Made by a program: the position numbers and the translations under genes. A stretch of DNA of 64,000 nucleotides from Xanthomonas sp. CFBP 8443 (lineage in GTDB: Bacteria > Pseudomonadota > Gammaproteobacteria > Xanthomonadales > Xanthomonadaceae), in assembly GCF_025666195.1 (NCBI RefSeq), contig NZ_CP102592.1:1736001-1800000 (forward strand), read 5' to 3'. Below, piece after piece: positions 46,204-56,790 of this stretch. The notes under the pieces are model-generated. The model had not been told where the DNA came from and searched no databases. It saw nothing but the letters and a program-made list of their open reading frames with translations. Position 1 is the first letter of the stretch. Every line of letters begins with the position of its first letter.

Positions 46204-46355
46204 TCGGGATTGGGGAGTGGGGATTCGGGATTCGATCCCTACTTCCAGCTGCTTGACCATGCGATCGGTCCAAGGGCCAATCCGCATCACGTCGCGCTTC
46301 AGTGCACGCGCCCTGCTTTTGCCAATCCCGAATCCCCAATCCCGAATCCCGGCCC
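46204..46355. repeat. Dispersed repeat, inverted pair between convergent genes (locus c)
   Basis: The left arm, 46204-46235, has GGGATTGGGGAGTGGGGATT and abuts the ridA stop. The right arm, 46321-46352, has AATCCCGAATCCCCAATCCC and abuts the stop of the CNMT-like gene (46357). The roughly 85-bp spacer shows no gene. Confidence 0.85.
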
Positions 46356-46356
46356 C

Positions 46357-47433
46357 TCAGCGCCTGACGAACCGGTAATGCGCCACGCCCCATTGCTGGC
46401 CCTGGTCGTAGCCGAACAGTTCCGCGCAGGCCATCCAGAACATGCGCCAGCGCTGCCACCAGATCCTGGCGTCGGCGCCGTAGGTGGCTTCCAGCAGCGG
46501 CATCAGTTCGTTGCGGTGCCGGTCCTGGTTGCGCAGCCAGGCGTTGGCGGTCTTCTCGTAGTGTTCGCCGGACAGCAGCCAGCGCCGTTCGATCGACAGG
46601 TCGTCCTGGAACTGCAGCAGGGTGTCGGCCGCCGGCATCAGCCCGCCGGTGAAGAAATGCCGGCCCATCCAGTTGTCCTCGCCCTGCACCTCGAACGGGT
46701 AGGCCAGGTCGCGGTGGCAGAAGATGTGCACGAACAGCTTGCCGCCGGGCACCAGCCAGTGGCCGATCCGCGCCAGCAGCTCGCGGTAGTTGCGCATGTG
46801 CTCGAACATCTCGATCGAGACCACGCGATCGTAGCTGGCGGTCGGCAAGGCGAGCGTGTTGGCGTCGTGGGTGACGACCTTGACGTTGTCCAGGCCGCGC
46901 GCGCGGCACTGCGCCTCGATGTGCTCGCGCTGCGGCCGCGAGTTGGACACCGCGGTGATGCGCGCGCCGGGGAAGCGTTCGGCCATCCACAGGGTCAGCG
47001 AGCCCCAGCCGCAGCCCAGTTCCAGGATGCGCTGGCGGTCGCGCAGCTGCGCGCGCTCGGCGTACAGCTGCAGCATGCGTTCTTCCGCCGCGTCCAGGTC
47101 GGCGGTGTCGGCGTCCCAGTAGCAACTGCTGTACTTCAGGCGCTTGCCCAGGCACAGCTCGAAGAAGCGCGGCGGCAGCTCGTAGTGCTGGCGGTTGGCG
47201 GCGTCGGTCTCGATCGCGATGGCGCTGGTGCGCAGCGCTTCGACGAAACCGCGCTGGCGCTCCCACGCCGCATCCGCGCCGCCGCTGCGCTCCTCGCGCA
47301 GGCGCTGCGTGCACAGCCTGCGCATCGCGCTGCGCAGCAGCGCATCGGGCAGCAGGCCGGACTCGGCGATACGCGTGACCAGCGGTTCGGCCGGCAGCGA
47401 CGGCGGGGGCGAGGTGGCGAAGGTGCTGGACAT
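46357..47433 (-). CDS. SAM-dependent methyltransferase of the Cfa/coclaurine-N-methyltransferase group
   Basis: The product is 358 residues. Motif I is RILELGCGWGSLTLWMAERF (about 143-162), followed by SIEMFEHM (about 213-220) and FVHIFCHRDLAYPFEVQGED. The later part, FFTGGLMPAADTLLQFQDDL and YDQGQQWGVAHYRFV, is typical of the bacterial branch related to plant CNMT rather than of E. coli Cfa. The Cfa signature YSCAYW reads YSSCYW here. It may methylate an unsaturated lipid chain or an amine. AGGAG lies 9 bp before the ATG. It is the last gene of the seven-gene run, 23 bp after the DUF1295 gene. Confidence 0.83.
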   Translation of the reverse strand: MSSTFATSPPPSLPAEPLVTRIAESGLLPDALLRSAMRRLCTQRLREERSGGADAAWERQRGFVEALRTSAIAIETDAANRQHYELPPRFFELCLGKRLKYSSCYWDADTADLDAAEERMLQLYAERAQLRDRQRILELGCGWGSLTLWMAERFPGARITAVSNSRPQREHIEAQCRARGLDNVKVVTHDANTLALPTASYDRVVSIEMFEHMRNYRELLARIGHWLVPGGKLFVHIFCHRDLAYPFEVQGEDNWMGRHFFTGGLMPAADTLLQFQDDLSIERRWLLSGEHYEKTANAWLRNQDRHRNELMPLLEATYGADARIWWQRWRMFWMACAELFGYDQGQQWGVAHYRFVRR

Positions 47434-47456
47434 CGGCGGTTCTCCTGGAAGCGGGA

Positions 47457-48239
47457 TCATTGCCGCGGCGGCAACGGAAAGAAGGCGCTGGTGCGGCGCT
47501 GGTAATCGGCGTAGTCCTGGCCGCGCGAACGCAGCGCCTGTTGTTCGGTGTAGGGAATGCCGGTGACGCGGTACAGGAATGCGAACATCAGCAGCGGCCC
47601 CAGCGCGGCGACGCCGACCCACAGCGCGCCGCCGCCCACCGTCAGGAACACGTAGGCGAACCAGTGCACGAACTCGAAGAAATAGTTCGGGTGCCGCGAG
47701 TAGCGCCACAGGCCGCGGCGGCAGGTCTTGCCCTTGTTGCCCGGATCGGCGCGGAACGCGGCCAGTTGGCGGTCGGCCAGGCTTTCCCCGCCCACCGCCA
47801 GCAGCCAGGTGAGCAGCGCCAGCGTCGTCCACACCGTCCACTGCGGGAGCGGATTGTGCGCGGCGACCGACAGCGGCACCGCGAACGCCACCACCACCAG
47901 CGCCTGGCCGAGGAAGAACGCCAGGAAGCGGCGCTGGTCGCCGTGCCAGTGTTCGCGCAGCGCGCGATAGCGGCCGTCCTCGTGCGCGTCGCCGAACACG
48001 CGCACGCCCAGGTGCCAGGCCAGGCGTGCGCCCCACAGTGCGCCCATGGCACCGGTCAGCACCCGCGGCAGCAGCGCGCCGTCGGCGCGCCAGGCGCAGT
48101 ACGCCGCGGCCAGCGCCATGCACGCGGCCCACAGCACGTCGACCACGCCGGCGTTGCGCGTACGCCGCTGCCAGGCCCAGCCGGCGAGCATCGCCACCAC
48201 GGTGAACAGGCCGACGTGCAACAGCGGCCAGGCATTCAT
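47457..48239 (-). CDS. DUF1295-family membrane reductase (steroid 5-alpha-reductase-like)
   Basis: The product is 260 residues with about six or seven membrane helices. The conserved C-terminal box RRGLWRYSRHPNYFFEFVHW (about 177-196) is the signature of DUF1295, which is related to steroid 5-alpha-reductase and to isoprenylcysteine methyltransferases, and binds NADPH in the former. It could reduce a carbon-carbon double bond of a lipid. It overlaps the DUF2878 gene by 4 bp and is part of the lipid cluster. Confidence 0.85.
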   Translation of the reverse strand: MNAWPLLHVGLFTVVAMLAGWAWQRRTRNAGVVDVLWAACMALAAAYCAWRADGALLPRVLTGAMGALWGARLAWHLGVRVFGDAHEDGRYRALREHWHGDQRRFLAFFLGQALVVVAFAVPLSVAAHNPLPQWTVWTTLALLTWLLAVGGESLADRQLAAFRADPGNKGKTCRRGLWRYSRHPNYFFEFVHWFAYVFLTVGGGALWVGVAALGPLLMFAFLYRVTGIPYTEQQALRSRGQDYADYQRRTSAFFPLPPRQ

Positions 48240-48787
48240 GGCGCGGCTCCGGCGATGCGTGGCGCAGGCTGCGCCCTCGCCGACAGACGCCGCGTCGCCA
48301 GGCTCAGGACGGCCAGCGCTGCGGCCCAGGCCAGCGCCAACGCGAGTACGGCGTGCAGCAGCGGCACGCCCAGCGTCACCGCCTGCCAGCCGCGCGCGGC
48401 CAGTACGTAGCCGAGCGGGCCGAATACCGCGCCGAACAGCGCCGCGCGCCACGGGCGGTGCATGACCCAGGCCAGCGAATGGTTGAAGGTCAGCGCGAAG
48501 CCAGCCCACAGTGCCAGGATCCACAGCGGCGCCCATGGCGCCGGCGGCAGCGCCGCCGCATAGCGCACCCAGCCGCCGGCGGCCAGCGCGGTGTCGACGC
48601 CGGCGCCGAGCAGCAGCGCCAGCGCCATCAGCGTGGCATCGCCATGCGCGCGCCGGCGCGGCTGCAATTGGTACAGCGCGAACAACAGCAGCGCCGCCGG
48701 TCCGCACCAGGCCAGCCCATGTCCGGCGCCGATCACCGCCGCCAGCCACAGCAGCTGCAACGCGACGTAGTTGGCGAGGTTGCTCAT
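48236..48787 (-). CDS. DUF2878-family membrane protein
   Basis: The product is 183 residues with six predicted membrane helices, matching DUF2878. The opening SNLANYVALQLLWLAAVIGA and WVMHRPWRAALFGAVFGPLG (about 114-133) are recognisable. The family is uncharacterised and is often encoded with Cfa-type genes. Both neighbours overlap it by 4 bp, so it belongs to the same operon. Confidence 0.83.
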   Translation of the reverse strand: MSNLANYVALQLLWLAAVIGAGHGLAWCGPAALLLFALYQLQPRRRAHGDATLMALALLLGAGVDTALAAGGWVRYAAALPPAPWAPLWILALWAGFALTFNHSLAWVMHRPWRAALFGAVFGPLGYVLAARGWQAVTLGVPLLHAVLALALAWAAALAVLSLATRRLSARAQPAPRIAGAAP

Positions 48788-50100
48788 GCGTCGCCCGCCA
48801 GCGCCGGCGCGAACTGCGCCGGGCGCGCGCCCGGCTTGCTCAGCCACAGGTGCACGTCGCCGATCGAGCGCTCCAGGAAGCCGCCTTCGCAATAGGCCAG
48901 GTAGAACTCCCACATGCGGATGAAGCGCTCGTCGTAGCCCAGCGCGCGCACCTGCGGCAATTTGGCCATGAAGCGCTGGCGCCAGGCGCGCAGGGTCAGC
49001 GCGTAGCTGGGTCCGATGTCTTCCAGGTTGAACAGGCGCAGGTCGCTGGCGCGCGCGATCGCGCCGGTCATCGCCGCCACCGACGGAATGAAGCTGCCGG
49101 GGAAGATGTGGCGCTTGATGAAATCCACCGAGCGCAGCGCCTGCGCGTAGCGGTGGTCCTCGATGGTGATCGCCTGGATCAATGCCTGGCCATCGTCCTT
49201 CAGCAGCGCGCCGACCTTGCCGAAGTAGGTGTCCAGATACTGGTGGCCGATCGCTTCGATCATCTCGATCGACACCAGCCGGTCGTAGCGGCCATCCAGG
49301 TCGCGGTAGTCGCGCAGCAGCACCTCGACGCGCTCACCCAGGCCGGCCGCGGCCACGCGCTGGCGTGCCAGCTCGTACTGCTCGCGCGAGATGGTGGTGG
49401 TGGTGACGCGGCAGCCGTGGTGGGTGGCCGCGTACAGCGCGAAGCCGCCCCAGCCGGTGCCGATCTCCACCAGGTGATGGTGCGGTTGCAGGTCGAGCTT
49501 GGCGCAGATGCGCTGCAGCTTGCGTTCGGCCGCGCGTTCCAGCGCGGCGTCGCCGAGCGCGGCGTCGTCGTCGCGGAAGATCGCCGAGGAGTACATCAGG
49601 TTGCGGTCCAGGAACAGCTCGAACAGCGGGTTGCCCAGGTCGTAGTGCGCGGCGATGTTGCGGCGGCTGCCGGCGCGGGTGTTGCGGGTGAGCGCGTGCA
49701 GGCCGCGCATCGTCATCCCGCCGAGCCGCGCCAGGCCGGACTCCATCGCATCCAGGCGGTCGCGGTTGCGCACCAGCAGGCGCACCAGCGCGACCAGGTC
49801 GTCGCAGTCCCACAGCCCGTCCATGTACGCCTCGCCGACGCCGACGCTGCCGTTGAGCGCGGCCTGGCGGTAGAAGCGCGGGTCGTGGATGCGCAGGTGC
49901 GCCTGCAGTGCCTCGCCCTCGGCCGCGGCGCTGCCCAGCGTGGTGATCGCGCCGGGCTCCTCGATGCGCAACTGGCCATCGCGCAGGCCGTCCAGCGTGG
50001 CGAACAGGCGGCGTCGCAGCAGGCGGTCCAGGCCGCGCAGCGGTGGTGCCGCCGGGGCCAGCGCGACGGCGTCGGAAGAGGGCGCGTGCGGAGCGTTCAT
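48784..50100 (-). CDS. cfa: Cyclopropane-fatty-acyl-phospholipid synthase family protein
   Basis: The product is 438 residues. The N-terminal region (RLRRRLF-type helices and GSVGVGEAYMDGLWDCDDLV) is the lipid-binding domain seen in full-length Cfa. The SAM domain has HHHLVEIGTGWGGFALYAAT (about 211-230) and IEMIEAIGHQYLDTYF (about 273-288), then FIKRHIFPGSFIPSVAAM, all Cfa landmarks. The YSCAYW signature of E. coli Cfa reads YSSAIF here, so it may add a methyl without ring closure, as in other 'Cfa-like' methyltransferases. It overlaps both neighbours by 4 bp. Confidence 0.87.
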   Translation of the reverse strand: MNAPHAPSSDAVALAPAAPPLRGLDRLLRRRLFATLDGLRDGQLRIEEPGAITTLGSAAAEGEALQAHLRIHDPRFYRQAALNGSVGVGEAYMDGLWDCDDLVALVRLLVRNRDRLDAMESGLARLGGMTMRGLHALTRNTRAGSRRNIAAHYDLGNPLFELFLDRNLMYSSAIFRDDDAALGDAALERAAERKLQRICAKLDLQPHHHLVEIGTGWGGFALYAATHHGCRVTTTTISREQYELARQRVAAAGLGERVEVLLRDYRDLDGRYDRLVSIEMIEAIGHQYLDTYFGKVGALLKDDGQALIQAITIEDHRYAQALRSVDFIKRHIFPGSFIPSVAAMTGAIARASDLRLFNLEDIGPSYALTLRAWRQRFMAKLPQVRALGYDERFIRMWEFYLAYCEGGFLERSIGDVHLWLSKPGARPAQFAPALAGDA

Positions 50101-50960
50101 CGGCGTTCTCGCGGAAGGGGAAGGTCGGGGTGGTCGTGCACCGGATTGCCGCGCAGCCACAGGCGCAGCGCTTGCCAGTGGATCTTGGCCACGACCTGCA
50201 GGGTCATCGCCGGGTAGCGCAGCAGCGCGCGCGCCAGGCTGGCGCCGCCGATCTCGCGCCGCTGCAGCACCAGCGTGGCGTCGAAGCGCCTGGCCGCCGG
50301 CGCGGCGTCCAGCACCTCCATGTGCACGCGCAGCTGCGCGCCGGGCGCGCTGCAGCGCCACGCGTAGTCGTGCGCCATCGCCATGAACGGCGAGACGTGG
50401 AAGCGCTTGTCGAAGCGCCACGCATGCACGCTGCCGTGACTGCGCGCCGCCGCCACCGGCAGCACGTAGGCGTGGCGCTGCCGCCACGGCGTGTTGGTGA
50501 TCTCGGCGACGATGCTGTGTAGGCGCTGCTGCATGTCGTGGCAGTAGTAGAACGTGACCGGGTTGAAGCAATGGCCGAAGTAGCGCAGGTGGGTCAGCAT
50601 GCGCACCGCGCCGAGCGGGCGCTCGCCGGTGTGCTGCTGCACGCGGTCGCGCACCGCCTCGTCCAGCGGCTGCGCCGGATCGCCCAGGTAGTCGCTGCGG
50701 CGGAATTCGACCAGGTTGCGGCGGCCCACCGACCACAGCCAGCGCCGCGCGAACACTTGGTCGAGTTCGGCCAGATCCAGGTACATCAGGAACAGCGGAT
50801 AGCGGAACGCCAGCGCTTTCGGCGCGTAGCGGCGATGCCGGACCCAGCCGCTGTACAGCGCGCTGTGCAGGCCGTGCGTGGTCGTGCCCGCCGCCGCCGG
50901 CGTTGTCGGGACGGCGCCAGCCGGCGGGGCGGACACGGTAGCGCTGCGCAGCAGATTCAT
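50097..50960 (-). CDS. DUF1365-family protein
   Basis: The product is 287 residues. It has HSALYSGWVRHRRYAPKALA, FRYPLFLMYLDLAELD, then LRYFGHCFNPVTFYYCHDMQ, which is the DUF1365 (COG3496) signature, and HVSPFMAMAHDYAWR. The biochemical role is unknown. It is a regular partner of COG2907 FAD oxidoreductases and Cfa genes in proteobacterial lipid clusters. It overlaps both neighbours by 4 bp, so the stoichiometry of these products is probably tightly set. Confidence 0.87.
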   Translation of the reverse strand: MNLLRSATVSAPPAGAVPTTPAAAGTTTHGLHSALYSGWVRHRRYAPKALAFRYPLFLMYLDLAELDQVFARRWLWSVGRRNLVEFRRSDYLGDPAQPLDEAVRDRVQQHTGERPLGAVRMLTHLRYFGHCFNPVTFYYCHDMQQRLHSIVAEITNTPWRQRHAYVLPVAAARSHGSVHAWRFDKRFHVSPFMAMAHDYAWRCSAPGAQLRVHMEVLDAAPAARRFDATLVLQRREIGGASLARALLRYPAMTLQVVAKIHWQALRLWLRGNPVHDHPDLPLPRERR

Positions 50961-52207
50961 GGCCAGGGTATCCCCAGCCCGGCGGCGACGTCGACCGCGC
51001 TGCGCAGGCCGTCCTCGTGGAAACCGAAGCCCCAGCCGGCGCCGGCGAACCAGGTGCCGCGCCGGCCCTGGATCTCGTGCTTGCGCGCCTGCGCGGCCAC
51101 CGCGGCCTGGGTCTGCAGCGGATGCCGGTAGCGCATGCGCCGCAGCACCTTGGCCGGGTCGATGTCGCCGCTGCGGTTGAGGCTGACGATCAACGGCTGC
51201 GGCGCGTCGAGCGATTGCAGCGCGTTCATCCAGTAGCTGACCGTGCACGGCGCCTCCGCATCGGCCGGCACGTGCGCGTTCCACGCCGCCCAGGCGCGGC
51301 GGTTGCGCGGCAGCACGCGCGCATCGGTGTGCAGCACGGTGTCGTTGTCCTGATAGGTGATCGCGCCGAGGATCTCGCGTTCGGCGGCGCTGGCGTCGTT
51401 GAGCAGACGCAGCGCGTCGTCGGCGTGGCACGCCAGCACGACATGGTCGTAGTGCTCGGTGTCGGCATCGGTCAGCACCGAGACGCCTTGCGACAGTCGC
51501 TGCACCGAGCGCACCGGCGTGCTCACGCGCTCCTCAACCCGCCAGCGGCTGCGCAGCGCATGTACGTAGCTGCTGGAGCCGCCGCGCACCACCTGCCATT
51601 GCGGCCGCCCGCTGAGCTGCAGCATGTGATGGTTGGCCATGAAGCCGACCAGCTGGCGCATCGGGAACTGCAGGATCCGCTGCGAGGGCGAGGACCACAG
51701 CGCCGACGCCATCGGTACCAGGTGCGCGTCGCGGAACACGTCCGAGTAGCGGTGGCGCCGCAGGAACTCGCCCAGGGTCAGCTGCGCCTGCGCAGCGTCG
51801 CTCAGCACCTGCGGCGCCTGCCGGTAGAAGCGGCGCAGGTCGCGCAGCATGCGCCAGAAGCGCGGGTTGGCCAGATTGCCGCGCTGGCAGAACAGCCCGC
51901 CCAGGCTGCCGGCGTTGTATTCCAGCCCGGTGCGCGCCTCGTGCACCGAAAAACTCATCGTGGTCGGCTGCGCCGCCACCTCCAGTTGCGCGAACAGCCG
52001 GCTCAGCAGCGGATAGTGCTGCGGGTTGAACACGATGAAGCCGCTGTCCACCGCGTACTGCGCGCCGTCCAGCTCGATCGTATGGGTGTGGGTATGCCCG
52101 CCCAGGTAGTTGGCGGCCTCGTACAGGGTCACATGGTGCTGTTGCGACAGCAGCCATGCCGAACCCAGCCCGGCGATCCCCGAGCCGATCACGGCGATGC
52201 GGCTCAT
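50957..52207 (-). CDS. COG2907-type FAD-dependent oxidoreductase
   Basis: The product is 416 residues. The N-terminal dinucleotide motif is IAVIGSGIAGLGSAWLLSQ (4-22), with the acid at the end of the second strand in VTLYEAANYLGGHTHT. Further blocks are DSGFIVFNPQHYPLLSRLF and AGAGWGFGFHEDGLRSAVDV, the FAD C-terminal box. The family includes predicted amine-oxidase-type flavoproteins that oxidise lipid or carotenoid substrates. In Rhodobacter, a gene of this class is required for furan fatty acids. It lies between the desaturase and DUF1365 genes, overlapping each by 4 bp. Confidence 0.87.
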   Translation of the reverse strand: MSRIAVIGSGIAGLGSAWLLSQQHHVTLYEAANYLGGHTHTHTIELDGAQYAVDSGFIVFNPQHYPLLSRLFAQLEVAAQPTTMSFSVHEARTGLEYNAGSLGGLFCQRGNLANPRFWRMLRDLRRFYRQAPQVLSDAAQAQLTLGEFLRRHRYSDVFRDAHLVPMASALWSSPSQRILQFPMRQLVGFMANHHMLQLSGRPQWQVVRGGSSSYVHALRSRWRVEERVSTPVRSVQRLSQGVSVLTDADTEHYDHVVLACHADDALRLLNDASAAEREILGAITYQDNDTVLHTDARVLPRNRRAWAAWNAHVPADAEAPCTVSYWMNALQSLDAPQPLIVSLNRSGDIDPAKVLRRMRYRHPLQTQAAVAAQARKHEIQGRRGTWFAGAGWGFGFHEDGLRSAVDVAAGLGIPWP

Positions 52208-53199
52208 CGTGCGCGCGCCTGTGCACGCAGCAGCCCGGCCGGCACTGGCTTCAGCTCGCGCACCAATCCGGTCCACGACAGCACCTTCAGGCCGTACCAG
52301 GTCAGGTCGCACTCCCACCAGCGGAAGCCCTGGCGCGCCGCGCCGGGGAAGAAGTGGTGGTTGTTGTGCCAGCCCTCGCCGAAGGTCAGCAGCGCCAGCC
52401 AGGCATTGTTGCGGCTGTCGTCGCGGGTGTCGAAACGGCGGCTGCCGAAGCGGTGCGCCAGCGAGTTGATGGTGAACGTGGCATGGAACAGGGCCACGGT
52501 GGAGACGAAGAAACCCCACACCAGCAACTGCGGCCCATCGGTGCCCAGCTGCGGATGGTGGCGCTGCAGCCAGCCGCCGAGCAGGAACAGCGCCAGCGCC
52601 AGCAGCACCGGCAGCAGCAGGTCGAAGCGGTCGAGGAAGCGCAGCTCCGGGAAGCGGCGCAGGTCCGGGATCGCCTCCCAGTCGGTGCGGAAGCCGCGCG
52701 GAGTCAGGAACCAGCCGCTATGGCTCCACCAGAAGCCGTGCTGGCGCGGGGAGTGCGGGTCGGTCGGCGTGTCGGTGTGGCGGTGGTGGTTGCGGTGGTG
52801 TGCGGCCCACCACAGCGGGCCGCGCTGCACGCTGGTGGCGCCGAGCGCGGCGAACAGGAACTGCACCGGTCGCGAGGTCTTGAACGCGCGGTGGGCGAAA
52901 TAGCGGTGGTAGAAGCCGGTGAGCGCGAACATGCGCAGCGCGTACATCGCCAGTGCCATGCCCACCGCGAACCAGGACACGCCGACCCAGAACACGCCCA
53001 GGCAGGCCAGGTGCAGGCCGAGGTAGGGTGCGGCGCGCAACCAGTCGATGCGATCGGCGCGGGCCTCGTCCAATTCGATCTCCGCACCGGTATCGAACCA
53101 GCGGCGCAGCGTGCGCGCCACGTTGCCGCGGTGCGGTAATGGCACCGCGGCAGACGTAGCGACGGGTGCACGGGGAGGGTCCGGAACGGCGTTCGTCAC
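52204..53199 (-). CDS. Fatty-acid desaturase, stearoyl-CoA-type delta-9
   Basis: The product is 331 residues. The three histidine boxes of membrane di-iron desaturases are visible: HRYFAHR (about 109-115), HHRNHHRHTD (about 144-153) and HNNHHFF (about 288-294), with four or so hydrophobic helices. It introduces a cis double bond into acyl chains. It is the first gene of the operon that ends in the CNMT-like gene, and it overlaps the FAD oxidoreductase gene by 4 bp. The start is a GTG at 53199; a TTG at 53238 would add 13 residues but has no ribosome-binding site. Confidence 0.85.
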   Translation of the reverse strand: MTNAVPDPPRAPVATSAAVPLPHRGNVARTLRRWFDTGAEIELDEARADRIDWLRAAPYLGLHLACLGVFWVGVSWFAVGMALAMYALRMFALTGFYHRYFAHRAFKTSRPVQFLFAALGATSVQRGPLWWAAHHRNHHRHTDTPTDPHSPRQHGFWWSHSGWFLTPRGFRTDWEAIPDLRRFPELRFLDRFDLLLPVLLALALFLLGGWLQRHHPQLGTDGPQLLVWGFFVSTVALFHATFTINSLAHRFGSRRFDTRDDSRNNAWLALLTFGEGWHNNHHFFPGAARQGFRWWECDLTWYGLKVLSWTGLVRELKPVPAGLLRAQARAR

Positions 53200-53229
53200 A
53201 GGTGCATCTCGTGGGGATTCGGATACCGA

Positions 53230-53256
53230 TACGGGCAAAGCCGCAGATCGGATGCA
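53230..53256 (-). promoter_or_regulatory. Candidate ECF-type promoter upstream of the desaturase operon
   Basis: Read on the minus strand, TGCATCC is followed after 16 bp by CGTA, which would place a start site near 53222, about 23 bp before the desaturase GTG. The spacing suits an ECF sigma factor. The motif is weak evidence: no copy was found upstream of the sigma gene itself. Confidence 0.3.
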
Positions 53257-53286
53257 CGTGTGACGTGTCTTTCATGCATGGCGTTG

Positions 53287-54060
53287 CTGGGCGGCCTGGC
53301 GCACGCGCATTTCCGAGCTTCGCCCGTCCCCTCATTCGCCCCTGGGGGCACCTTCCCCCATGGGTGTCGGGCTGTCAGCGCGCGCGGTTAGCCCCTCTCC
53401 CCTCGGGAGAGGGGTTGGGGTGAGGGTGCGTCGGCACGGACAGCCTGGCGCACCGAAATTTCCGAGGCTTCGCCCGTACCCTCATCCGCCCCTGCGGGGC
53501 ACCTTCTCCCGTGGGGAGAAGGGGAACTGCGAGGCAGTGCAGCGAGTGCTGCGGTTAGCCCCTCTCCCCCCGGGAGAGGGGTTGGGGTGAGGGTGCGTCG
53601 GCACGGACAGCCTGGCGCACCGAAATTTCCGAGGCTTTCGCCCGTACCCTCATCCGCCCCTGCGGGGCACCTTCTCCCGTGGGGAGAAGGGGAACTGCGA
53701 GGCAGTGCAGCGAGCGCCGCGGTTAGCCCCTCTCCCCCCGGGAGAGGGGTTGGGGTGAGGGTGCGTCGGCACGGACAGCCTGGCGCACCGAAATTTCCGA
53801 GGCTTTCGCCCGTACCCTCATCCGCCCCTGCGGGGCACCTTCCCACGAAAAGGGGGCCATGGTCCCGTGGGGAGAAGGGAGCTGTTGTCAGGCTGTGCAG
53901 AGAGCGCCCGCGGTTAGCCCCTCTCCCTCCGGGAGAGGGGTTGGGGTGAGGGTGCGTCGGCACGCACAGCCTGGCGCACCTGGATCTGTGAGGCTTCGCC
54001 CATACCCTCATCCGCCCCTTCGGGGCACCTTCTCCCGATGGGAGAAGGAACAGCTGGCAC
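53287..54060. repeat. Tandem array of about four 167-bp hairpin-rich units
   Basis: Units begin at GTTAGCCCCTCTCC: 53387-53553 (167 bp), 53554-53721 (168 bp), 53722-53912 (191 bp, with an insert of about 23 bp near 53843-53865) and a shorter one at 53913-54060. A degenerate partial copy precedes them (53287-53386). Each unit contains a CCCCTCTCC/GGGAGAGGGG hairpin, a TTGGGGTGAGGG tail, and a second hairpin CCTTCTCCCGTGGGGAGAAGG. Units 1-3 are nearly identical outside the insert. No reading frame in it looks genuine. The array lies between the anti-sigma gene and the desaturase gene. Confidence 0.9.
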
Positions 54061-54073
54061 CGCGGTGGCCTGC

Positions 54074-54856
54074 CTACGGCGCCAGGCGCAGCGTACTGAT
54101 GCCGCCCTTGGCGACGACCGGGCCGGTGGCCACGCCACCGGGTGCGCCGCCAGGCGGTTCCATCGTCACCGCCAGCACCGCGCCATCGCTGAGCAACGGC
54201 ATCAATGCATCGGGAATGCGCGCCGCGCGCGCCTGCGCGTCGTCGAACACGCCCATCGAGCGTGCCTTGCCGTCGGCCGGGATCAGCCATAGCTCGGGCA
54301 CGCGCTCGGCATCGCGGCGGCCGGCCAGCGGGGTCAGGGTAATGCGCTTCTTGTCGGCGTCCATCAGCACCACGTAGCCAGGCTTGCCGTCGTCCTGCAT
54401 CAGCGTCGAGGTCATCGCGATGCCGGTATCGGTTGGCACTGTCGCGGCCGGCGGCGTGGGCGTTTGCGGCGGTAGCGGCTGACGCGCGACCATCAGCGTG
54501 AGCATGCACGCCGCTGCGGTGGCGAAGCCGCCAGCGCTCAGCCAACGCCAGGCGCGCACGTTTTCCCAGAAGCCAGGCGCTGCCGTCGGCGCACGTGGCG
54601 CTGGCGCATCCAGTCCCAACGAGGCACGAATGCGCACCCACACGCGGTCGGGCACCGGCACCGGCGCGATCTCGTCGGCCAGCGGCATCAGGTGCTGCTG
54701 CCATTGCGTCACCGATGCGGCGAAGTCGCCATCGCTGTCGATGCGCTGCTCGGCGGCACGGCGCTCGTGCGCGTCGAGCACGCCGAGCACGTATTCGCCG
54801 GCCAGTACGTCGCGCGACGGCGGGGTTTCCTGCGGATCGGGCACGGAGGCGTTCAT
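54074..54856 (-). CDS. RskA-like anti-sigma factor
   Basis: The product is 260 residues. The N-terminal cytoplasmic domain (DVLAGEYVLGVLDAHERRAA, then QWQQHLMPLADEIAPVPVPD) resembles RskA-type anti-sigma domains, which lack the zinc-binding HxxxCxxC motif of ZAS proteins. One membrane helix follows near residues 102-122 (FATAAACMLTLMV). The periplasmic C-terminal domain (VPELWLIPADGKARSMGVFD) matches the anti-sigma-K C-terminal family, which senses signals and is cut by regulated proteolysis. It overlaps the sigma gene by 4 bp, so it surely binds that factor. Confidence 0.88.
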   Translation of the reverse strand: MNASVPDPQETPPSRDVLAGEYVLGVLDAHERRAAEQRIDSDGDFAASVTQWQQHLMPLADEIAPVPVPDRVWVRIRASLGLDAPAPRAPTAAPGFWENVRAWRWLSAGGFATAAACMLTLMVARQPLPPQTPTPPAATVPTDTGIAMTSTLMQDDGKPGYVVLMDADKKRITLTPLAGRRDAERVPELWLIPADGKARSMGVFDDAQARAARIPDALMPLLSDGAVLAVTMEPPGGAPGGVATGPVVAKGGISTLRLAP

Positions 54857-55410
54857 CGTTCCAGGCACGCCTTCAGCTTGGCCAGGCCGCGGCGGATCCA
54901 GCTCTTGACCGTGCCCAGCGGGGTGCCGCTGCGCGCGGCCAGTTCCTCATAGGTGATGCCTTCGAAGAACGCGGTGCGGATGAGGTCCCCGCGCGGCGGT
55001 TCCAGTTCGCCCATGCACACGTCCAGGCGCCGTCCGGCGACGCGCCATTCGGTCTCGGCCAACGGATCGCGGCCCTCGTCGTGCAGTTCGCCGGCATCGT
55101 CCAGCGCCACCGACTGCCGTGCCGGCGCGCGTGCGCGCAGATGGTCGATGGCCTTGTTGCGGGCGATCATGGTCAGCCAGGTCAGGCCGCGCGCGCGCAG
55201 CGGATCGAACTGCGCGGCCTTGCGCCAGACCGAGGCGAACACGTCCTGCAGCACGTCTTCGGCGTCGCCGCGTTGCGGCACGATGCGCAGGCACACGCCG
55301 AACAGGCGCGGCGAGGTGGTCCGGTACAGGCGCTCGAACGCAACGCTGTCGCCGGCCGCGGTGGCGACCAGCAGTTGTCCCGCTTCGTCGTGGTCTGGCG
55401 TCTCGGTCAT
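54853..55410 (-). CDS. ECF sigma factor, SigK-like
   Basis: The product is 185 residues. Region 2 has AFERLYRTTSPRLFGVCLRI and AEDVLQDVFASVWRKAAQF, then LTWLTMIARNKAIDHLRAR. Region 4 has TAFFEGITYEELAARSGTPL and GTVKSWIRRGLAKLKACLE, the HTH that binds the -35 element. It recruits RNA polymerase to its target promoters; the partner is the RskA-like protein in the overlapping gene. The desaturase-Cfa operon lies downstream and is a likely target. The SigK family in mycobacteria responds to redox change. Confidence 0.9.
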   Translation of the reverse strand: MTETPDHDEAGQLLVATAAGDSVAFERLYRTTSPRLFGVCLRIVPQRGDAEDVLQDVFASVWRKAAQFDPLRARGLTWLTMIARNKAIDHLRARAPARQSVALDDAGELHDEGRDPLAETEWRVAGRRLDVCMGELEPPRGDLIRTAFFEGITYEELAARSGTPLGTVKSWIRRGLAKLKACLER

Positions 55411-55468: not shown

Positions 55469-55840
55469 TCAACGGCGCTGTCCGCGCCACAGCGCCAGTG
55501 CGGCGAGCAGCAGCAAGATCTCGAAGACGGCCAGTCCGGTCGTGGTCGGGCCCACCGGCCACAGCCGCAGCAGGCCGACGCTGCGGTAGAGCACGATCGG
55601 CACGTAGAACGCCAGCGCCAGCAGCAGCCCGGTGCGCAGCTGTCCGGTGCGGGCGAAGTAGCCGAACAGGAACGCCATGCCCAATTGCAGGCCGCCGTAG
55701 ATGACCAGGTACTCGGACTGGCCGGAGCGGTCCAGGCCGACGTAGCCGACCGCGGCGGCGGTCTGCGCCGGCAGCAGCGTGCACCACAGCGCCAGGACCG
55801 CATAGAGCGCGGCGTTGAACCACAGGTAGGCCTTGGCCAT
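55469..55840 (-). CDS. Small integral membrane protein (DUF4345-like)
   Basis: The product is 123 residues with four predicted membrane helices, starting AKAYLWFNAALYAVLALWCT. The SGQSEYLVIYGGLQLGMAFL segment and the RTGQLRTGLLLALAFYVPIV segment resemble DUF4345, but the match is by eye only. GAGGAAT lies 6 bp before the ATG. It is transcribed in the same direction as, and 58 bp upstream of, the sigma factor gene, and could be co-transcribed. Confidence 0.7.
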   Translation of the reverse strand: MAKAYLWFNAALYAVLALWCTLLPAQTAAAVGYVGLDRSGQSEYLVIYGGLQLGMAFLFGYFARTGQLRTGLLLALAFYVPIVLYRSVGLLRLWPVGPTTTGLAVFEILLLLAALALWRGQRR

Positions 55841-55912: not shown

Positions 55913-56698
55913 TCAGCGCGCGCCGCATTGCGCGACCAGGGGGCGCTGCAGGGCCTGGTCCCAGGCGTCGTCGCCGGCCTGCGCACGCAGGCGCTCGGGA
56001 AATTCGATGCGCACCCGCGGATAGCGGCCTTGCGCATCGCGGAGGTTGCCGACGCCGCGGAACTCAAGCAGGTGCCGGTCGCTGCGCGCGTAGGCGACCG
56101 CAATGTCGGGCAGCAGGCCGCCGTACCAGGCGGACAGCGCCAGGGTATAGCGCTGCACGCCCGCATCGGCGGCGCCGGGCTTGATCTGGAAGTCGAGCGT
56201 GCGCAAGGCGCTGGGCAGCACGAAGGCGATGCGTTGCGGCGCGCCGCTGCCCAGGGCGTCCCAGTGCATGCGCAGATAGGCGTCGAACCCGGCATCGATC
56301 ACCTGCGGGGTGTCCGCCGCCGGCAACGGCGCGCGCCGTTCCGCCTGGCCCTTGGCCTGGGTGAACATCTCGCGGCCGGCGCCGGCCCGGCGCACGCCTT
56401 CGCGATAGCCGCTGCGCGCATCGACCAGTTCGAAGTCCGGAGCGATGCCGCCGTCGGCGACGCGCTTGCGCGCGAAGGCCGTGCCGTCGGCGCAGCGGTA
56501 CAGCACCAGCCGCGCCCCGTCGTCGCGCACCCAATGGCGTTCGCGGTACAGCAGCTGGCCGCCGTCGGCGGCGTAGGCCAGCCCGTCGTACTGCAGCATC
56601 GCCTGCGCCGGGACAGCGGCGCCGAGCGCGACGAGGCCCAGCAGCGCCAGCGCGCGCGGCGGCGGGACGAACGGGGAACGGGCGGTCGGCATGGGCAT
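55913..56698 (-). CDS. Secreted protein of unknown function
   Basis: The product is 261 residues with a signal peptide (ALALLGLVALGAAVPAQAML, about residues 16-35). The mature part begins LQYDGLAYAADGGQLLYRER and ends near PLVAQCGAR; a single other cysteine lies at about 69 (YRCADGTAF). I do not recognise a family. It has a beta-rich pattern with regular aromatic residues, and reads like a lipocalin-like or DUF protein. It lies 72 bp upstream of the DUF4345-like gene and may be part of the sigma-factor module. Confidence 0.7.
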   Translation of the reverse strand: MPMPTARSPFVPPPRALALLGLVALGAAVPAQAMLQYDGLAYAADGGQLLYRERHWVRDDGARLVLYRCADGTAFARKRVADGGIAPDFELVDARSGYREGVRRAGAGREMFTQAKGQAERRAPLPAADTPQVIDAGFDAYLRMHWDALGSGAPQRIAFVLPSALRTLDFQIKPGAADAGVQRYTLALSAWYGGLLPDIAVAYARSDRHLLEFRGVGNLRDAQGRYPRVRIEFPERLRAQAGDDAWDQALQRPLVAQCGAR

Positions 56699-56790
56699 GC
56701 GCGGCGCTTCCGAGGTGGATGACAGCTAGCAATACGCGGCGGGCGCCGATCCGGATGCGCCGGCGGTCGCGTCGGCGACGCATGCCGCGC

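Follow-up and report, generated by a model that had tools for sequence, protein, structure and literature searches.

The window considered here, a stretch of 64,000 nucleotides within the single-contig genome (5.24 Mb) of Xanthomonas sp. CFBP 8443, comprises a seven-gene operon of lipid-modification families and, ahead of it on the same strand, the genes of an extracytoplasmic function (ECF) sigma factor and its RskA-like anti-sigma factor. The nearest named relative, judged by the DUF1365 protein (94%), is Xanthomonas bonasiae. The operon genes are joined by five 4-bp overlaps and a last gap of 23 bp, so that the single unit read in this DNA by an earlier note stands, as do the family names it gave to the genes of operon and pair, on which Pfam and NCBIfam agree (Table 1). 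That note also placed the pair directly upstream: it is on the same strand and its two genes do share 4 bp (ATGA), but 874 bp separate the anti-sigma stop (54074) from the desaturase start (53199), with four repeats, 60–100% identical to the reference copy, in between. Given this separation, the operon probably needs a promoter of its own.

Table 1. Features of the operon and of the sigma unit (window positions).
Feature	Position	Strand	Remark
Exported 261-aa protein, first gene of sigma unit	55913..56698	-	signal-peptide-like start, by eye
Small membrane-type protein	55469..55840	-	DUF4345 match below Pfam cut-off; alternative start 55867
SigK-like ECF sigma factor	54853..55410	-	passes NCBIfam PRK12534
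RskA-like anti-sigma factor, RskA_C	54074..54856	-	Pfam PF10099
Four copies of direct repeat of about 168 nt, between anti-sigma and desaturase genes	53302..53995	.	
Membrane fatty acid desaturase	52204..53199	-	GTG start; Pfam/NCBIfam
UfaD-like flavin adenine dinucleotide (FAD) oxidoreductase	50957..52207	-	COG2907 type; Pfam flavin amine oxidase type
UfaO-like DUF1365 protein	50097..50960	-	Pfam/NCBIfam
UfaM-like Cfa-family methyltransferase (CMAS)	48784..50100	-	Pfam/NCBIfam
DUF2878 protein	48236..48787	-	Pfam/NCBIfam
DUF1295 protein	47457..48239	-	weaker Steroid_dh and ICMT matches
Second methyltransferase, coclaurine N-methyltransferase (CNMT)-like, CMAS-related	46357..47433	-	Pfam/NCBIfam
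P1, GCATCC-N16-CGTA, predicted ECF promoter of sigma unit	56733..56758	-	
P2, GCATCC-N16-CGTA, predicted ECF promoter of seven-gene operon	53230..53255	-	

The block is not an accident of this strain. Among 80 named loci, kept from the 233 confirmed by a DUF1365 search, all 31 of Xanthomonas have it complete (in one, L192, the last gene meets the contig end), and because of this recurrence its order lies far above chance; the earlier note had suggested looking for the same order elsewhere beside an RskA-type pair, and there it is. Between the end of the operon and a convergent gene, short imperfect repeats of the GGGATTCGGGATTGGGGATT type were seen by eye (46210-46340).

The company kept by the operon was followed in 60 genomes of the family, scanned for DUF1365, RskA_C and ChrR, 29 of which have DUF1365 and the operon. 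In eleven of them an RskA pair immediately precedes the operon in the same orientation. Five lie beside a ChrR pair (three divergent, one upstream on the same strand, one downstream), assignments that rest on two ChrR queries together with sigma genes on the matching strand. The other 13 belong to genomes with neither RskA_C nor an above-cut-off ChrR anywhere, five of them with partial ChrR matches below the cut-off. RskA_C is present in 17 of the 60 genomes; 11 of the 17 possess the operon, with the pair adjacent in every one (G038 having a second pair elsewhere), and G019, which holds both types of pair, has the RskA one at its operon. The present genome encodes a single RskA_C protein, the one at the operon, and gave no ChrR match at E 0.001. 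Since RskA pairs adjoin the operon in Xanthomonas, Pseudoxanthomonas, Luteimonas, a Lysobacter metagenome-assembled genome, Bordetella and Achromobacter, the earlier note was right to call the anti-sigma factor RskA-like and different from ChrR, but the trait is not peculiar to this locus. Two Bordetella loci (L205, L242) have tandem SigK-RskA pairs, two each, upstream of the operon.

What ties pair and operon together is the sequence GCATCC-N16-CGTA. The window has two such sites, one ahead of the desaturase gene and one ahead of the sigma unit, against a mean of 0.06 sites in 100 dinucleotide shuffles of the window, none of which has two. A site lies 2.7–3.5 kb ahead of the desaturase frame in all 31 named Xanthomonas loci. 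In the family sample GCATC(C/T)-N16-CGTA, sought from -200 to +40 of the projected desaturase start, is found at 15 of the 16 operons with an RskA or ChrR pair and at none of the 12 readable operons with neither (L074, cut by the contig start, was dropped), as compared with a mean of 0.005 and a largest value of 1 in 200 shuffles; with NNATC(C/T)-N16-CGTA the counts become 16/16 and 0/12. For the named loci 4 kb upstream were scanned at 73 loci, the seven without a desaturase being left out: sites appear at 40/40 RskA-type loci, 3/3 ChrR-type loci and 4/30 others, where the ChrR profile included ChrR51, a third query taken from the wrong strand, and where a 5-kb rule for pairs places among the pair-less both L208, whose ChrR pair is downstream, and L238, whose RskA pair lies further upstream. 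L208 is one of those four. At L220 the site lies elsewhere in the locus, and in Bordetella and Achromobacter sites stand ahead of the sigma and exported-protein genes, not of the desaturase itself. Of eight RskA pairs not located at the operon, five show the motif ahead of their own sigma gene; in the others it is on the other strand (L090), downstream only (L096) or lacking (L091). The consensus given for RpoE/ChrR in Pseudomonas syringae, TGATCC-N16-CGTA, has equal spacing and differs in the first two letters of the -35 element, which makes ours a predicted promoter of the RpoE-ChrR (ECF11) form; the same study, in the part available, mentions strains that have the motif without that sigma factor, and suggests another sigma factor or another reason for retention (PMC5507510). 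Genes of the UfaD, UfaO and UfaM types, as expected of ECF11, lie behind it, by family level and motif position.

One might object that the RskA pair merely lies nearby and that the operon answers to some other sigma factor or regulator. The 874 bp with their repeats would fit this view, as would the 13 family operons devoid of either pair, 8 of the 12 readable ones displaying TTCAC-N6-ATCAC instead; moreover, the survey of regulators in this genome covered RskA_C and ChrR, not other ECF sigma factors. We hold this to be quite improbable, because the pair is adjacent wherever RskA and operon coexist in the family sample, because the motif comes and goes with the RskA or ChrR pair, and because it also precedes the sigma gene of most RskA pairs located elsewhere. 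Shared motif and conserved adjacency thus argue for control of the operon by the neighbouring ECF pair, which the earlier note had proposed, and a single promoter would seem to serve sigma factors of both the RskA and the ChrR type.

Two further observations concern promoters. TTCAC-N6-ATCAC is found near the desaturase start in 8 of 12 readable pair-less family operons (L068, L070, L072, L075, L076, L078, L084, L085) and in 0 of 16 with a pair; a third regulator possibly stands behind these operons. GCATCC-N16-CGTA also precedes a gene with the Pfam Oxidored_molyb domain, presumably msrP-like, in six genomes that also encode an RskA pair (1501-2543 in L130; 2859391-2860430 in the present genome).

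The sigma factor passes NCBIfam PRK12534 (349 bits over a cut-off of 267) and falls below the curated SigK model PRK09646 (132 bits, cut-off 226). Its PLGTVKS helix, which we take to be the one that reads the -35 element, is nearly identical between RskA- and ChrR-type sigma factors, and its matches to RpoE of Rhodobacter sphaeroides (E 3e-23) and SigK of Mycobacterium tuberculosis (E 3.6e-23) are equally good. Both of its cysteines align with those of M. tuberculosis SigK (4nqw), a pattern seen in 41 of 52 RskA-type sigma factors and in 0 of 9 of ChrR type. In the anti-sigma factor RskA_C is matched with 77 bits (cut-off 29.4), and inspection of its sequence revealed no HxxxCxxC zinc motif of the ChrR type; its most hydrophobic stretch of 19 residues (106-124) is likely to be a membrane helix. 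The sigma unit probably starts earlier than the pair, at the exported-protein gene followed by the small gene, both absent from the earlier note. The exported protein, for which Pfam gave no match, is predicted to have a LolA-like fold; its relatives occur in 20 of the 60 family genomes, and all 20 belong to the 29 with DUF1365. In 9 of 11 pair-less genomes the LolA-like gene was seen by eye to follow a short-chain-dehydrogenase-like gene (L243, L245-L248, L250, L252-L254); that of L252 is Pfam adh_short. This neighbour might be an RSP1087-like partner.

In a tree built from the UfaD, UfaO and Cfa sequences (107 of 109 loci aligned; 87 rows after removal of 20 near-identical Xanthomonas ones) cassette type changes repeatedly, as far as these sequences tell, with 10 changes over three states. 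For 29 rows picked from that tree, a quick tree requires five changes, three of them forced by well-supported branches, and on it a single clade of ChrR-adjacent operons is rejected (approximately unbiased test, p 0.00085). The operons of Bordetella and Achromobacter nest inside the Xanthomonadaceae group, and the sigma factors of their RskA pairs branch apart from the Xanthomonadaceae ones. Transfer has therefore happened, and this lends some weight to a different account, in which nothing was replaced at the operon, the operon itself having moved among genomes or loci already holding either cassette; we consider this rather unlikely, for G019, with both types of pair, keeps RskA at its operon (a judgement made on operon trees). 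The grounds for and against a broader proposal are about evenly balanced: operon and promoter would have stayed constant while the unrelated ChrR (zinc-type) and RskA (membrane-spanning) cassettes repeatedly replaced each other, harnessing the same response to different signals in close relatives, and in Xanthomonas the anti-sigma factor may be informed of a lipid signal by the LolA-like protein, in the manner of RseB/MucB.

As for the enzymes, the desaturase has nearly invariant histidine-rich motifs (101 homologues), and the nearest solved chain to the FAD oxidoreductase is the amine oxidase LkcE. The operon Cfa has Ser, Ala and Gln in place of Cys139, His240 and His266 of the Escherichia coli enzyme (numbering and roles as we presume them), and is thus devoid of these residues of a synthase, while keeping Glu, Ile and Tyr of the site. 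This is general: among 108 homologues position 139 is Ser in 98, Cys in 6 and Ala in 4, with Ala at 240 and Gln at 266 in all 108. The best CMAS match of the genome (L001) retains the Cys and both His. To state, as the earlier note did, that the chemistry of each step is unassigned was too strong, as the relevant account assigns three steps in Rhodobacter and Rhodopseudomonas: UfaM puts a methyl group on vaccenate, UfaD (RSP1091) introduces a double bond, and oxygen insertion falls to UfaO (RSP1090, a DUF1365 protein) (PMC7380195). The kinship with Rhodobacter furan-fatty-acid genes that it had noticed is supported by these family types. Could the product nevertheless be plain methyl-branched or cyclopropane-like chains, or another methylated lipid, with RskA/SigK control unchanged? 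In actinobacteria a Cfa-like methyltransferase and an FAD-binding oxidoreductase, likened to ours by description, are reported to make 10-methyl stearic acid (PMC5660069), and the desaturase, the DUF1295 protein and the CNMT-like protein are not among the enzymes named for Rhodobacter in the portion of the work at hand (PMC7380195). We deem such a product doubtful, given that UfaD-, UfaO- and UfaM-type genes come together, that DUF1365 is the oxygen-inserting step in Rhodobacter, and that the operon Cfa is without canonical residues.

None of this makes the operon a distinct system to which desaturase, DUF1295 and DUF2878 genes have been added, as the earlier note surmised. A matching nine-gene cluster under RpoE-ChrR, smlt2375-2367, is described in Stenotrophomonas maltophilia as a periplasmic protein, desaturase, FAD oxidoreductase, hypothetical protein, Cfa, two inner-membrane proteins, a second Cfa and a lipocalin (PMC11832516), and the supposed additions are there, as they are in Stenotrophomonas sepilia (L235), where profile matches give exported protein, desaturase, UfaD, DUF1365, Cfa, DUF2878, DUF1295 and CNMT, with a ChrR pair lying divergently alongside; the S. 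panacihumi locus (L210) gave no match for DUF2878 or the exported protein. By RNA sequencing, transcripts of the S. maltophilia cluster are reported to increase 165- to 697-fold on loss of chrR, and to go back down when rpoEc is missing too (PMC11832516). Annotated order, ECF control and a putative box before both operon and sigma gene are common to the two; S. maltophilia differs by its rpoEc-chrR-chrA genes, ChrR as anti-sigma factor, divergent orientation and the lipocalin as ninth gene, whereas Xanthomonas has RskA, on the same strand, and the exported-protein gene ahead of the sigma gene. The operon is already known, then, in a close genus; what is new is RskA-type control and a promoter in common with the ChrR type. 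A SigK-RskA pair beside genes of this sort would itself have a precedent, if the neighbours of M. tuberculosis sigK, Rv0446c-Rv0449c, are, as we assume, DUF1295, Cfa-like, DUF1365 and COG2907. SigK-RskA (ECF18/19) of M. tuberculosis and Yersinia enterocolitica resembles our pair by RskA_C beside the sigma factor, two cysteines and self-regulation, which for M. tuberculosis sigK is said to proceed from the Rv0449c promoter (PMC7509140); the Xanthomonas sigma factor differs in remaining under the NCBIfam SigK cut-off and in facing a seven-gene operon, in a proteobacterium, that has a predicted promoter of its own. R. sphaeroides likewise has UfaD/UfaO/UfaM-type genes (RSP1091-1087 and ufaM) under an ECF sigma factor, with ChrR control, and with no desaturase, DUF2878 or CNMT-like gene named in the parts cited (PMC7380195, PMC6852236). 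Finally, the "RpoE-ChrR" of Rhodobacter capsulatus is a SigK/RskA-like pair in the RpoE/ChrR role, induced by photo-oxidation, for which the account, as far as available, lists no RSP1090/1091 homologue (PMC7074977).

It seems probable to us that the locus represents, in Xanthomonas, an already known kind of ECF-controlled operon for methylated furan-type acyl chains, a SigK/RskA cassette replacing RpoE/ChrR. From what the letters directly display, that is gene content and order, motif placement, conserved linkage and the non-canonical Cfa residues, we infer transcription from the motif, signal, lipid product and each chemical step in this organism. Membrane-anchored RskA would hold the sigma factor until stress, probably oxidative damage of the envelope, frees it to read P1 and P2. 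P1 would raise its own unit (LolA-like protein, small membrane protein, sigma and anti-sigma factors) and P2 would drive the seven genes of the operon. Going by homology, the Cfa-like enzyme would methylate an unsaturated chain, the FAD enzyme introduce a second double bond and the DUF1365 protein insert oxygen, acyl chains being modified on membrane phospholipids; the unsaturated substrate may come from the desaturase, and the product may be methylated by the second methyltransferase.

Several facts pull in the other direction. The S. maltophilia mutants are reported to have a superoxide phenotype and no clear singlet-oxygen phenotype, and the accessible part of that work describes no lipid measurement (PMC11832516). 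The likeness of three operon genes to UfaM, UfaD and UfaO was judged at family level only. Two of the 12 family operons with neither pair have CATC(C/T)-CGTA at spacing 17, and three named loci (L206, L207, L211) have the motif with no pair detected. Genome-wide, the motif counts 11 sites against 5 for the reversed control (9, 10 and 14 against 1, 1 and 2 in G006, G058 and G017); the motif by itself is therefore not specific, and lone sites elsewhere may well be due to chance. The sigma factors of Bordetella, Achromobacter and Methylobacillus loci do not show the cysteine patterns, so that a thiol switch is not general. Of the 11 RskA-type family loci, only 6 have the exported-protein gene next to the pair.

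A search of the literature, at the level of listings, found no report of methylated or furan fatty acids in Xanthomonas, and it is their presence across the genus that the proposed operon function predicts. More broadly, these related bacteria make up a natural series in which output operon and promoter are constant and the sensor differs. This makes testable how sensor cassettes may be exchanged without rewriting of promoters, and which signal is answered by furan-type lipids outside phototrophs.

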